DNA of 20,527 nucleotides. It comes from a virus. This document shows, in pieces, positions 12,152 to 17,597 of this stretch. The DNA lies in IMG/VR virus record IMGVR_UViG_3300017773_000198, positions 1-20,527 of that record; one strand, 5' to 3'. The position numbers were made by a program, and so were the translations under genes. Below the pieces are notes generated by a model. It ran no database searches. It saw nothing but the letters and a program-made list of their open reading frames with translations, and was not told where the DNA came from. Each line of letters begins with the position of its first letter. Position 1 is the first letter of the stretch.

Positions 12152-12156
12152 TATCT

Positions 12157-12178
12157 AAGCAGTCAATGCTTTTTTTTG
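12157..12178 (+). terminator. Rho-independent terminator after the phosphoesterase gene
   Basis: AAGCA (12157-12161) pairs with TGCTT (12167-12171) across a 5-nt loop, followed by an 8-base T-run and further T-rich DNA. The stem is short and AT-poor enough only at its centre, so efficiency is uncertain, but the position, 6 nt after the stop of the last late gene, fits the end of the transcript. Confidence 0.5.
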
Positions 12179-12203
12179 TTTTTTTATTTTTAACAATAGG
12201 AAT

Positions 12204-12245
12204 AAAAAAAAGGCATCGTCCACTAAAGAAGATTCTGCCCTTTTT
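12204..12245. terminator. bidirectional-type hairpin in the switch region
   Basis: A-rich run plus GGCA (left arm ends at 12214) faces TGCCC plus T-run (12236-12245), giving a stem of about nine pairs with one bulged C and a loop near 20 nt. A-tract on the left and T-tract on the right would let it terminate transcription from either side. Seen by eye only. Confidence 0.4.
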
Positions 12246-12300
12246 AAATGATTAATAAATTCGAAGCTATCAATCACTGCAAATATAGTTAAAATTGTTT

Positions 12301-12320
12301 AGCAATCAATGTTTTTTTTT
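12301..12320 (+). repeat. degenerate copy of the first terminator
   Basis: AGCAATCAATGTT followed by a T-run of nine repeats the pattern AGCAGTCAATGCT plus T-run at 12158-12177 with two changes. The stem survives with one G-T pair. It may be a second terminator or a duplicated remnant. Bases between 12245 and 12300 hold no gene or other signal that I can see. Confidence 0.35.
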
Positions 12321-12389
12321 CTTTATAACAATAAAATTATCCTTTTCTTTTATTGCCTTTTTTTAATAAATTTTATTTTTTTTGTTTTT

Positions 12390-12422
12390 TTTGCAAATAT
12401 TAAAAAAAATGATGTATATTTG
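12390..12422 (+). promoter_or_regulatory. Bacteroidota-type promoter for the early/replication genes
   Basis: TTTG at 12390-12393 and TATATTTG at 12415-12422 are separated by 21 nt. This agrees with the Bacteroidota primary sigma promoter (TTG at -33, TAnnTTTG at -7), and matches both elements exactly. The predicted start is about 4-7 nt after 12422. A T-run upstream of TTTG and A-rich spacer are like strong promoters of the phylum. It lies 190 nt before the first early gene, behind the hairpins. Confidence 0.75.
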
Positions 12423-12427
12423 CTATG

Positions 12428-12611
12428 TAGTTAATCACAAAGCTATTTAATTTCACAATTTAAAATTAAGTAACTAAAGGAAAACGAGTCAAAGGTTAGA
12501 GTTACCGAGTTAATCACTACAAACTAACAATAGTAAAAATTGTAACAAGGTGTAAAATGAAAGCACCTACTCACAGACAAATCAAAATTTCTAAAATTAA
12601 AATGAAAAAAA
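12428..12611 (+). other. 5' leader of the early transcript (non-coding apart from a short uORF)
   Basis: About 185 nt between the predicted start of transcription and the first early gene. It holds an exact 10-base repeat AGTTAATCAC (12429-12438 and 12508-12517) and a hairpin AGGTG (12548-12552) / CACCT (12564-12568) whose loop contains an ATG. GGTTAGAGTTACC near 12494-12505 can fold in a short way. No known riboswitch is recognised. The length is unusual for a genome where most genes abut. Confidence 0.4.
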
Positions 12612-12622
12612 ATGAGTTATAA
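12557..12622 (+). CDS. possible leader peptide (uORF)
   Basis: A 21-codon frame (ATG 12557, TAA 12620-12622) begins in the hairpin loop of the leader and overlaps the first early gene start at 12612. The peptide is basic (KAPTHRQIKISKIK). It could couple ribosome entry to folding of the AGGTG/CACCT stem or may just be chance in AT-rich leader. No homology is recognised. Confidence 0.25.
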   Translation: MKAPTHRQIKISKIKMKKNEL

Positions 12623-12827
12623 ATTATTAGATAAAAAAGAAAAAAAAAATGTTATTAATATGATGATGCAAATATCAAAATATACTAACAATAACTTTTA
12701 TGTAAATGAAACAGAAGTTCCAAATAGAATAATTATAGCATTTAGAAAACCTACAGAAAAACAAGCTACAATTATTTTAGAGAAATTAGCAAAAGATATA
12801 AAAGAAGATAATTATTCTGTATTTTAA
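12612..12827 (+). CDS. small early protein, unknown
   Basis: The first clear gene after the early promoter, 71 residues. It begins with a charged helix SYKLLDKKEKKNVINMMMQISKY, has a short strand NNFYVNETEVPNRIIIAFRKP, then another helix EKQATIILEKLAKDIKED. The order helix-strand-strand-helix is compact and Lys-rich. Early phage genes in this position often encode host take-over proteins, but nothing here identifies a target. Start choice: ATG 12612 lies after a run of A, like many starts in this genome. Confidence 0.55.
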   Translation: MSYKLLDKKEKKNVINMMMQISKYTNNNFYVNETEVPNRIIIAFRKPTEKQATIILEKLAKDIKEDNYSVF

Positions 12828-14490: not shown

Positions 14491-14967
14491 ATGGAAAATT
14501 ATACTGATAAAATTCTACAGACTTTAGTAGATAAAATCCAAACGACTTACGGAATAGACATTTTAAAAAAAGGTAGAATACTTAAAAAGGTGCATCTCTT
14601 TAAAATATTCTGCAACTATGTAAGATTTAAACTTAAAATGGATGGCAAAAAACTTACATGTCAACAAATAGGAAGCTTCACAAAAAGAAATCATAGCACC
14701 ATAGTACATGCTTGCAAATCTTATCAAAATTTAATATTTGCAGACAGAGAGTTTAGAGAACTAGCTAGCACCCTAGAGTCTTCTTTTTACGAGGTAACTG
14801 GAAACCCAAAAAAGAATAGTTTACTGCATAAAGTAGATAAGTTCAACGAAAAAAAAGCTGAGTATTGGACTCGAAAAATACAAAAAGAAGAAACAAAAGA
14901 ATCTTATTTCCCTATTATGAATCACACTTTTAGTGATGTTAATATAGAATCTGTAGATTATGACTAA
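14491..14967 (+). CDS. stand-alone DnaA domain IV (origin-binding HTH) protein
   Basis: The 158-residue product has the DNA-binding domain of DnaA without the AAA+ motor. Residues about 33-82 hold the helices, with LTCQQIGSFTKRNHSTIVHACKSYQNLI at 55-82; RNHSTIVHA (66-74) is the DnaA signature loop that contacts the DnaA box. Residues 1-32 are a short helical N-terminus, and 100-158 are a charged tail (EKKAEYWTRKIQKEETKE). In full-length DnaA this domain is C-terminal; here it is central. No Walker motif is present. Possible roles: binding to a phage origin, recruiting or blocking host DnaA, or regulation. Overlaps the replisome-organiser gene by 8 nt, which carries the iteron cluster. Confidence 0.8.
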   Translation: MENYTDKILQTLVDKIQTTYGIDILKKGRILKKVHLFKIFCNYVRFKLKMDGKKLTCQQIGSFTKRNHSTIVHACKSYQNLIFADREFRELASTLESSFYEVTGNPKKNSLLHKVDKFNEKKAEYWTRKIQKEETKESYFPIMNHTFSDVNIESVDYD

Positions 14968-15637
14968 AGATCCAGCATTTTTATTTTATTCTTCAGACTT
15001 TTTAACTGGAACTATGTTTATGACCGATCAGCAAATTGGTCAGTATATAAAACTTCTTTGCATCCAGCATCAAAAAGGTACGATTAGTGAGACCGAATTT
15101 TTAAACGTCTGCAAAAATTATGATGAAATTCTTCTAGAGAAATTTATTAAAGATAATGAGGGAAAGTATTATAATAAAAGGCTTTGCGATGAAATGGCCA
15201 AACGTAAAAACTACTCTGATTCTAGAAGAAAAAATAGATTAGGTAAATCTAAAAAACATATGATAAACATATCTAAAACATATGACAAACATAAGGAAAA
15301 TGAAAATGAAAATAAAGATATAAATATAAATGGAAATGGAAATGCAATTGAAATATATCCAACTCATGAAGATTTCTGGAATGAGTACGATTATAAAAAA
15401 GGAAAACCAAAATCATTAAAGGCCTGGAATAATTTGAACTACAAGACTAAAGAGCAGATTATGCAATATATCCCAAGCTATAAAGATGCGACTCCAGATA
15501 AACAATTTAGAAAATTTCCTGCAACCTTTTTAAACAACGAAGGCTGGAAGGATGAAATAACAATTAAACATGTCAGAAATAATAAAAGTACAAGACAAGA
15601 AACAAAAAGTGCAATTAGCGAAACTCTTAGGAGATAG
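14960..15637 (+). CDS. replisome-organiser / replication initiator-type protein (DUF1376-like N-terminus)
   Basis: A 225-residue protein of two domains. The first (1-95) is winged-helix: FYSSDFLTGTMFMTDQQIGQYIKLLCIQHQKGTISETEF, as in DUF1376/YdaU-type phage initiators. A Lys/Asn-rich linker (96-133; KHMINISKTYDKHKENENENKD) follows. The second domain (about 135-200) begins HEDFWNEYDYKKGKPKSLKAWNNL and closes with FRKFPATFLNNEGWKDEI, which is common in phage replisome organisers and thought to contact the helicase loader. The linker-coding DNA contains four AAACATA units with 11-bp period and a C-free AT-rich track. As in lambda gene O, the origin could lie in the initiator gene. Ends with a 67-base overlap (68 nt including the shared start) into the following gene. 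Confidence 0.65.
   Translation: MTKDPAFLFYSSDFLTGTMFMTDQQIGQYIKLLCIQHQKGTISETEFLNVCKNYDEILLEKFIKDNEGKYYNKRLCDEMAKRKNYSDSRRKNRLGKSKKHMINISKTYDKHKENENENKDININGNGNAIEIYPTHEDFWNEYDYKKGKPKSLKAWNNLNYKTKEQIMQYIPSYKDATPDKQFRKFPATFLNNEGWKDEITIKHVRNNKSTRQETKSAISETLRR
15254..15344 (+). repeat. candidate replication origin: four 11-bp iterons plus C-free AT-rich track
   Basis: Four direct units start at 15254, 15265, 15276 and 15287, a constant 11-bp step. Three read AAACATAT and the last AAACATAA. The units lie on one face of the helix. Directly after, 15291-15344 has no C on the + strand, is A-rich, and contains GAAAAT and AATGGA short repeats, a good unwinding region. Since 11 is not a multiple of 3, the peptide (HMINISKTYDKHK) is not repetitive, so the pattern is in DNA, not protein. 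This recalls lambda ori, in which iterons and an AT/purine-rich stretch lie in gene O. Origin activity is inferred. Confidence 0.55.
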
Positions 15638-15986
15638 TCAAAAACTTGTTAGAAATATAAATTCTGTTAAAGCTGCAAGAACTGCTATAAGTCCTAGAAT
15701 ATCAGAATTAATAAAAATACAAGGAGAAGAAATTATAGCTCATTTCATTGGGGATCTAATAGATTCTTTAGAAGATAATATAAACACGAAGGATAGGATG
15801 ACTGTAAATCAAAAAGCAAGTACAGCAATTCGAATAATTGACAAGTATAAATACTTTAAAGTTTCTGATCTAGTGTATGTTTTTAATAAGATCATGGATG
15901 GAGAGATAAAAATTTATGGATCTCTGACTCGCCAGGTTATTATGGGAGCATTATTTGAACATGAAAATTTAAGATCACAAAGATAA
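15570..15986 (+). CDS. small replication-module protein, unknown, long overlap with upstream gene
   Basis: The 138-residue product starts inside the previous gene (68 nt overlap) in a different frame. It is helical and basic at the start (IKVQDKKQKVQLAKLLGDSQKLVRN), then AARTAISPRISELIKIQGEEIIAHFIGDLIDSLEDN, and a C-terminal IRIIDKYKYFKVSDLVYVFNKIMDGEIKIYGSLTRQVIMGALFEHE. The final block (Y-x-x-F-K-V-x-D-x-x-x-x-F-N-x-x-x-x-G...I-Y-G-S-L...I) is reminiscent of DUF6633-type Bacteroidota proteins; I am not certain. Next in-frame Met is about 75 residues later and would cut off the conserved start, so 15570 is preferred. The stop falls in a hairpin (15985-16005). It may cooperate with the replication initiator. 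Confidence 0.6.
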   Translation: MSEIIKVQDKKQKVQLAKLLGDSQKLVRNINSVKAARTAISPRISELIKIQGEEIIAHFIGDLIDSLEDNINTKDRMTVNQKASTAIRIIDKYKYFKVSDLVYVFNKIMDGEIKIYGSLTRQVIMGALFEHENLRSQR

Positions 15987-16032: not shown

Positions 16033-16473
16033 ATGATAGAAACAATTAAAAACAGAAATAATACATATAAGCTAATAGTAGATAGCCTTCCTGGTAAGAG
16101 AAAGGAAATCTATAATTTAATTTTGCAAGAATATCCTTGCTCTCCACAAGAAATAAAAGAAAAATATTCACACCTTAAAAGCATAAGCAGAAATGTAGCA
16201 ATGCGATTTACAGAATTAAGAGAATCTGGATATATAGTAGAGCATGGAATTTATATAAACGATACAGGCCATGCTTGTTCTTCATATAGACCTACATCTG
16301 AAGACGAAAGGATAGATATTATTAATAAAAAATATCAAGCCCTTGTAGATAAAAAGTCTGCTTTAGAGAGAGACTGGGTATTTGGTAGCCTTCAGCTTTC
16401 TGGAATCACTAAAGACATGATCCAAAAAGAAATAAATAAAATAGACTTACAAATTAAAAACTTAAAACAATGA
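16033..16473 (+). CDS. winged-helix DNA-binding-type protein
   Basis: The 146-residue product begins IETIKNRNNTYKLIVDSLPGKRKEIYNLILQEYPCSPQEIKEKYSHLKSISRNVAMRFTELRESGYIVEHG. This is a winged helix pattern: first helices, a P-C-S-P-Q-E-I start of the recognition unit, then R-x-x-E-L-R-E-x-G-Y-I-V, typical of the wing. The C-terminus has a charged coiled coil (QALVDKKSALERDW; QKEINKIDLQIKNLKQ). ATG 16033 is favoured, as the ATG at 15997 (12 residues longer) lies within the hairpin. The protein could regulate the replication genes. It overlaps the SSB gene by ATGA. Confidence 0.55.
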   Translation: MIETIKNRNNTYKLIVDSLPGKRKEIYNLILQEYPCSPQEIKEKYSHLKSISRNVAMRFTELRESGYIVEHGIYINDTGHACSSYRPTSEDERIDIINKKYQALVDKKSALERDWVFGSLQLSGITKDMIQKEINKIDLQIKNLKQ

Positions 16474-16820
16474 TAATTAAAACACAAGCTGAAATAAGTG
16501 ATATTCAAGATGTTATTACAAGAGGTAATAATTTTCAAATCACTCCAATACTTTTAAAAATAGACAATGAACTACATCAAGTAGAAGCAGTAGGATTAGA
16601 TCATGCAATCTGTAATGGATTTAATGTAGGAGACATAGTACAATGTGAAATAGTCTGGAAATCTGTACAATCAAAAACAGATTCTAATAAATACTGGAAT
16701 AATATTAATCTAGTTAAGGTAAACAGTATTAATAATCAGATGAGTATTACACCAGAACAGGCATCTATAGAAGCACAATCATACAAGCAAGATCTTAGTA
16801 AAGATGACTTGCCTTTTTAA
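16470..16820 (+). CDS. ssb: single-stranded DNA-binding protein
   Basis: A 116-residue protein of the OB-fold type: an N-terminal FQITPILLKIDNELHQVEAVGLDHAICNGFNVGDIVQCEIVWKSVQSK and NKYWNNINLVKV strand pattern (G-D-x-V-x-C-E...N-N-I-N-L-V), then a flexible Gln/Ser-rich linker, and finally DLSKDDLPF. The ending DDLPF (112-116) is close to the acidic tip D-D-x-P-F by which bacterial SSB recruits partner enzymes. Some phage SSBs have the same. This places it in ssDNA binding during replication and recombination. The start overlaps the winged-helix gene by ATGA. The fold is read from pattern; a tetramer or dimer state is not known. Confidence 0.75.
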   Translation: MIIKTQAEISDIQDVITRGNNFQITPILLKIDNELHQVEAVGLDHAICNGFNVGDIVQCEIVWKSVQSKTDSNKYWNNINLVKVNSINNQMSITPEQASIEAQSYKQDLSKDDLPF

Positions 16821-16838: not shown

Positions 16839-17597
16839 ATGGAACTATTCAAAACAAAAACACATACACCTCTTTTTAAATTACATGAAACTAAAGACTA
16901 TACAGAATTTTCTTATTATACTTATAATCGTAAAATTGATAATAAAAAAGTAGCTCGATTAAAAAAATCTATATTAGAAACAGGTCAAGTTATATCTCCA
17001 ATAATTGTAGATTATAAAGGTAGAATAATAGATGGTCAGCATAGATTTCAAGCTTTGAAAGAGTTAGGTTATCCAGTATTTTATTTAGTAAGACAGCTTA
17101 ACGGAAAACTAACAAAATATCTAATTGAATCTAATAATGTTTTAGATAAATGGAAACAATATGACTTTGCAAAATTATATGCAGAAGCAGGAATTAAAAA
17201 CTATGAAGATATAATAAATGTTTATAATTATTGGGAAAAAAAGTTAAACAGGGATTTCCCTTTTGGTAGAATAGTTTATGCATATACTGGTGGAGAAAAC
17301 CCAAAATTTAAAAATGGTACTGCTGTCTTTTTAAAAAATAATGGCGATAAAATTTTAAATATTTTATTTGAATTAGATAAACTGTACGAAGACAAATTAG
17401 CATTTCATTTTAACAATTTTAGATCTCTAAAAAAATTATTAGCTGTAAATAAAAAATTTGACTCCAAACATTTTATAGAACAATGCAAAAAGAAAAAATT
17501 TAATACATATTCTACAGTTGAAGATACATTAGATTCTATGGTTTCAGTATATAATTATCACATCATAAATCCAAGTAAAAAAATTCGCACAGCCTGA
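16839..17597 (+). CDS. ParB/sulfiredoxin-fold (ParB-like nuclease domain) protein
   Basis: The 252-residue protein has a ParB/Srx N-terminal domain: VARLKKSILETGQVISPIIVDYKGRIIDGQHRFQALKELGYPVFYLV (38-84), with the conserved GQHR (66-69) motif. Proteins of the family bind nucleotides and, in ParB, DNA sites; in phages they often are fused to or adjacent to replication, methyltransferase or terminase genes. The remaining 165 residues form a helical domain with LDKWKQYDFAKLYAEAGIKNYEDI and ENPKFKNGTAVFLKNN; there is no second known domain. It is the last gene before the terminator at 17649. A second ParB-like protein is encoded at 20115. Confidence 0.65.
   Translation: MELFKTKTHTPLFKLHETKDYTEFSYYTYNRKIDNKKVARLKKSILETGQVISPIIVDYKGRIIDGQHRFQALKELGYPVFYLVRQLNGKLTKYLIESNNVLDKWKQYDFAKLYAEAGIKNYEDIINVYNYWEKKLNRDFPFGRIVYAYTGGENPKFKNGTAVFLKNNGDKILNILFELDKLYEDKLAFHFNNFRSLKKLLAVNKKFDSKHFIEQCKKKKFNTYSTVEDTLDSMVSVYNYHIINPSKKIRTA

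Follow-up and report, generated by a model that had tools for sequence, protein, structure and literature searches.

A probable replication origin in the linker codons of a phage initiator gene unrelated to lambda O, and a second repeat array in the helix-turn-helix codons of its relatives

In phage lambda, the replication origin lies in gene O, where iterons bound by the initiator and a strand-asymmetric AT-rich track occupy the middle of the gene, and the helicase-loader gene follows that of the initiator (PMC7466680, PMC5043065). Phage SPP1 has the same layout at oriL, which lies in gene 38 of the gp38-gp39-gp40 system (PMC6316719), and the iteron origins of plasmids P1, F, RK2 and R6K combine helically phased direct repeats with an adjoining A+T-rich region (PMC5043065). 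The window analysed here, a stretch of viral DNA of 20,527 nucleotides, contains a repeat array and a C-free track laid out as in the lambda ori, phi80 gene 15 and Stx phage origins, with iterons and an AT-rich track in the middle of an initiator gene. The array and track are most likely a replication origin of the lambda/SPP1 intragenic style, paired with an unrelated initiator.

The initiator gene (14960–15637, plus strand) encodes 225 residues comprising an N-terminal winged helix, a disordered linker and a C-terminal helical domain. Its product matched phrog_270, 'replication initiation protein' (E=3.6e-14), and phrog_9327, 'primosomal protein' (E=1e-11), and scored 17.8 bits against DUF1376 (PF07120; gathering cut-off 30.1), to which the relative L161 scored 33.8 bits; together, the window protein and its relatives match DUF1376, PHROG 9327 and 3992 ('primosomal protein') and PHROG 270. 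No O-like family was found among the PHROG hits of the window initiator, in keeping with the earlier note, which had called it unrelated to lambda O, and no plasmid Rep family was matched in Pfam and PHROG scans. In an AlphaFold2 model built from 60 relatives (mean pLDDT 82), the winged helix covers residues 23–72 (15026–15175, plus strand), with helices at 23–39, 44–51 and 56–60 and two wing strands, while linker residues 108–129 are disordered (pLDDT<50). Searching the PDB with this model gave nothing significant (best E=0.44) and only weak winged-helix matches, the DnaD N domain among them. The C-terminal domain, about residues 133–200 (15356–15559, plus strand), is common to other phage initiators, as tblastn matches restricted to residues ~133–215 were to initiators of Vibrio, Staphylococcus and Arthrobacter phages, and it is swapped in the relatives L008, L026, L028 and L030. 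Two window proteins, the portal and a virion-type protein of 311 aa, are nearest to those of the Nonlabens phages P12024S/L (31% and 27%, respectively), which favours a Bacteroidota host, as had been proposed.

Within this gene, four AAACATA units start at 15254, 15265, 15276 and 15287, an exact 11-bp step, and span 15254–15293 on the plus strand: iteron 1 (AAACATATGAT, 15254–15264), iteron 2 (AAACATATCTA, 15265–15275), iteron 3 (AAACATATGAC, 15276–15286) and iteron 4 (AAACATA, 15287–15293). The last overlaps the start of an A-rich track with GAAAAT and GGAAAT hexamers on the same strand, a putative DNA unwinding element, whose uninterrupted C-free run occupies 54 nt at 15291–15344. Both the four units with their period and the 54-nt stretch had been described in the earlier note, and both are real. 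The codons of array and track correspond to about residues 99–129, that is, the linker plus a low-confidence stretch just N-terminal to it. Tandem AAACATA is confined to 15254–15293 in the 20.5-kb window, which contains only one perfect array of four 7-bp units at any period of 8–24, and such an array appeared in 0 of 200 dinucleotide shuffles of the window. Folding of the strand of the array region was weak (z = −1.4).

Despite the shared layout, namely an iteron array in the initiator linker and an adjacent AT-rich strand-asymmetric track, the initiator is not homologous to O, and the iterons are 11-bp direct repeats, palindromic only in the CATATG core, rather than the 18/19-bp inverted-repeat iterons of lambda. 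Judged from the sequence by initiator homology and iteron form, the candidate origin falls outside the lambda O family. Like the origins of iteron plasmids, it has direct repeats at about one helical turn (a step of 11 bp in the window and of either 11 or 12 bp among relatives); unlike them, the array lies inside a gene, a plasmid Rep match is absent and there is no DnaA box (TTWTNCACA) near the array, the single occurrence in the window being at 1557. We found no description in the open-access literature of an origin inside DUF1376 or PHROG 9327, 3992 or 270 genes, which is weak evidence for absence.

Given that the array and track are also coding sequence, the repeats could simply reflect AT-rich codon usage and a linker peptide rich in Lys, Asn and Glu, and have no function at the DNA level, an explanation that we regard as very improbable. 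It is favoured by the AT-richness of the initiator gene, the conserved linker peptide (H-M-x-N-I-S-K-T-Y-x-K-H-M-E-N-E-N), the in-frame GAAAAT hexamers and the C-free runs of similar length elsewhere in the window (77 nt at 12592–12668 and 54 nt at 1182–1235). However, because 11 bp is out of frame, successive iteron units fall in different reading frames, and the repeats exceed what the protein imposes: identical or near-identical 7-mer pairs at 11 bp numbered 13 in the window linker versus 2.8 expected (0/200 with the protein fixed) and averaged 7.2 versus 1.8 expected in the linkers of 94 loci under a synonymous null, and the perfect array arose in 155 of 20,000 trials that replaced the local codons by synonyms drawn from the codon usage of this phage. 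In addition, the window iterons encode Asn by AAC, whereas the tracks use AAT almost exclusively.

The length of the C-free run was discarded as stand-alone evidence, since similar runs occur elsewhere in the AT-rich coding strand; as such a run is not rare in the window, the significance of the track comes from its conservation. Moreover, its GAAAAT hexamers are in frame and encode Glu-Asn repeats, so a codon test was required. In the tracks of relatives, AAT and AAC encode Asn at 685:6, as compared with 1873:1202 elsewhere in the same genes, and GAA and GAG encode Glu at 540:10, as compared with 2777:817, contrasts that are inflated for the first 18 of 36 nt because the track pattern itself demands C-free hexamers. 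C is avoided in the track through synonymous choice, and the C-free track is thus selected, or maintained, as DNA. The earlier assertion that protein constraint is excluded thus stood for the 11-bp iterons; for the track it needed the codon test, which was passed across relatives.

To follow the array beyond the window, IMG/VR (2.9 million viral contigs) was scanned with the DNA-only pattern AAACATA-N4-AAACATA-N4-AAACATA, which returned 25 contigs, 18 of them, by our count, in this initiator gene family. Nearly all of these 18 loci carry the pattern in the linker, with L017 carrying it in the N domain, and some of the genes have a swapped C domain. Protein-guided scans added 80, 67 and 240 loci and were the source of 191 non-redundant genes. 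Some relatives come from named strains with sequenced genomes, among them Flavobacterium caseinilyticum AT-3-2 (L166) and Chryseobacterium antibioticum RP-3-3 (L161). The test proposed in the earlier note, loss of the iterons in related phages with the same protein, came out in favour of the origin, with a classifiable linker array in 167 of the 191 relatives and a C-free track in 165 of them by the track pattern used, while 17 had no classifiable array in either the linker or the N domain. The relative L005 (76% identical) has retained the track as well as the four units, and linker array and track persist also in genes with an exchanged C-terminal domain. The lambda-like intragenic layout is therefore supported, with array and track both in the linker and both kept in relatives.

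Spacing is also maintained: in ACATATG-type linkers, steps between ATAT[GC] units were 11 bp in 139 cases and 12 bp in 52, with few others, and the last linker unit usually continues into CATATGGAAAATGA (70 genes). In other lineages the same site holds other iterons (GCCRYGGC, ACCATTAGGT, GGTCATATGACC, AAGCTAYSCTT, GGTTAACC and GATAACCC), and there too the array is mostly followed by a GAAAAT-type track. In ten near-complete ~32-kb relatives, all ATATG-N6-ATATG pairs but one stray lie in initiator-gene arrays, forming two clusters about 150–180 bp apart, both inside the gene. The array is absent from a distant DUF1376 gene of a Rhizobium phage (L434), indicating that it is confined to a subfamily. 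GC skew, another check that had been suggested, gave no pointer to the site: in six near-complete ~32-kb relatives it follows the coding strand, and it was rejected as an origin marker.

The gene upstream of the initiator (14491–14967, plus strand) encodes a DnaA domain IV-like helix-turn-helix protein (partial match to Bac_DnaA_C, E=6.7e-4), which may be accessory or unrelated. A DnaA-domain protein is thus encoded beside the array, as the earlier note had stated, but by sequence comparison it is probably not the iteron binder: it is only 28% identical between the window and L005 despite nearly identical iterons, and it was detected in 44 of 191 loci, sometimes upstream and sometimes downstream, and in only 29 of the 94 loci with ACATATG-type arrays. 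Owing to this poor conservation and inconstant presence, it was rejected as the main iteron binder. The same figures weigh against the array being, instead of an origin, an operator for this neighbour or some other regulator, or a site through which the initiator regulates its own gene. Tandem sites are often used in autoregulation, and in the window phage a candidate regulator is encoded next door; however, the missing DnaA box and the position of the array in mid-gene, beside a C-free track rather than at a promoter, also speak against such a role, which we therefore consider improbable.

An origin is further suggested by what lies downstream. Overlapping the end of the initiator gene, in the position of lambda P, is a gene for a 138-aa protein (15570–15986, plus strand; phrog_35728), a putative helicase loader. 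Directly 3′ of the initiator, DnaB is encoded in 54 of 191 loci (in L058 with DnaB_C E=7e-75), and 44 loci carry a homologue of the 138-aa protein there, with the two never found together; the window itself has the loader-like gene only. This mutual exclusion makes the 138-aa protein a candidate recruiter and, by analogy with lambda P, suggests that it recruits host DnaB. Its homologue in L005 lies at L005:2750-3265, and the family seems to replace DnaB downstream. The same replication block of the window encodes an SSB-like protein (16470–16820, plus strand; phrog_4932, E=5.5e-5) and a ParB-like protein (16839–17597; phrog_12305, E 3e-16).

Taking the array, the track, their conservation, the codon-level constraint and the gene context together, all of which were observed in this analysis, we consider it highly likely that the linker of the 14960–15637 gene is the phage origin, at which the initiator would bind the repeats and melt the track for helicase loading. 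For the binding, melting and loading steps, lambda O and SPP1 gp38 serve as models. The winged-helix N domain of the initiator would bind along one face of the DNA, at the four direct repeats phased by 11 bp, and the resulting nucleoprotein complex would strain and melt the adjoining C-free A-rich track. The C domain, acting with the small product of the following gene or, in relatives, with phage DnaB, would then load the replicative helicase on the opened strand.

A more surprising result than the candidate linker origin is a second array: in most relatives, the lineage-specific iteron of the linker recurs within the stretch of the initiator gene that encodes the helix-turn-helix, at about residues 36–60 (for example, in L058:4001-4597, L161:7998-8780, L132:335-1048 and L157:7040-7969). 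Lambda O and phi80 gp15 have no N-domain iteron copy, so that the second array distinguishes these relatives from both, and in SPP1 the second origin lies about 13 kb away, whereas the second array here is in the same gene, ~0.2 kb from the first. It is absent from the initiator genes of the window, L005 and L022 and hence is not essential.

In 122 of 130 genes, N domain and linker carried the same array class (36 on average and 52 at most after shuffling), although the class patterns were partly picked by eye, so the weight falls on permutation, positional and synonymous tests, all of which leave gene kinship in. Summed over 191 genes, similarity of the N part to its own linker was 2693, compared with 1849 (sd 39, max 1967) when linkers were permuted. 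The excess over the linkers of other genes peaked, at ~+4, for 60-nt probes from CDS nt 105–120; values at the 5′ end were ~0 to 0.4, and those in the C domain 0.1 to 0.2. The match of N part to linker exceeded the synonymous null at p<=0.05 in 106 of 188 genes, 50 of which had 0/100 draws. An independent-pairs test on the tree, with array columns masked, contained 2 supported pairs and was hence underpowered. Several iteron classes show matches between N-domain copies and linker, and in L161, L168 and L231 the copies match on the opposite strand, which peptide constraint cannot account for.

The second array may provide extra binding sites, mediate looping or handcuffing, or be a relic of internal duplication. 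The last of these, in which a copy of the linker array arose by duplication or gene conversion and has no function, is a serious contender to which we give somewhat less than an even chance. It fits the initiators that manage without an N-domain array (lambda O, phi80 gp15, the window and L022), as well as the varying distance to the linker array, mostly about 170–260 bp and not locked to 11 bp; the idea that the arrays keep a constant helical phase relative to each other was tested and rejected, as no such phase was found. Against a relic, units of the second array are still 11 or 12 bp apart (84 and 40 steps, respectively), and the array exceeds the synonymous null and tracks the linker through several iteron classes. 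More tentatively, and in our judgement rather unlikely, the helix-turn-helix codons may be built from the putative DNA site of the protein itself, with the second array co-evolving and working with the linker array (for example, in looping or handcuffing), so that a switch to another iteron class would alter the site and the DNA-binding motif at once, in a single gene.

These findings offer a putative, testable function and a candidate origin for a large phage gene family whose best annotations are 'DUF1376' or 'primosomal protein' (at least 571 confirmed IMG/VR candidates in one scan, and members in genomes of Bacteroidota and Clostridia as well), and they suggest that the lambda design recurs with an unrelated initiator. 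With the second array, one stretch of DNA codes for the DNA-binding motif and at the same time matches the iteron of the lineage, which would open joint change of initiator and origin specificity to study.

Several further loci came to light. An unannotated homologue in a human faecal phage contig (MT837034.1; L007:3575-3640), located just 3′ of an SSB-like ORF, has a GGAAAT track and linker repeats of the TACCACGGTA type. At L006:2817-2930, a DnaD-like/replication-initiation gene whose N domain differs carries a CCACAGA array and a C-poor purine track in its linker, with a DnaB-like ORF downstream. Tandem 11-bp arrays of five or four AAACATATGTA or AAACATAGGGA units occur outside any gene of the initiator family at L010:1078-1150, in L032 (the L010 array on the minus strand) and at L025:818-860, and may represent intergenic origins, or operators, in other phages. 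In the window itself, an AT-rich gap without long ORFs (12152–12668, GC about 0.21–0.25) separates structural from early genes, ends in the 77-nt C-free run and is likely regulatory.
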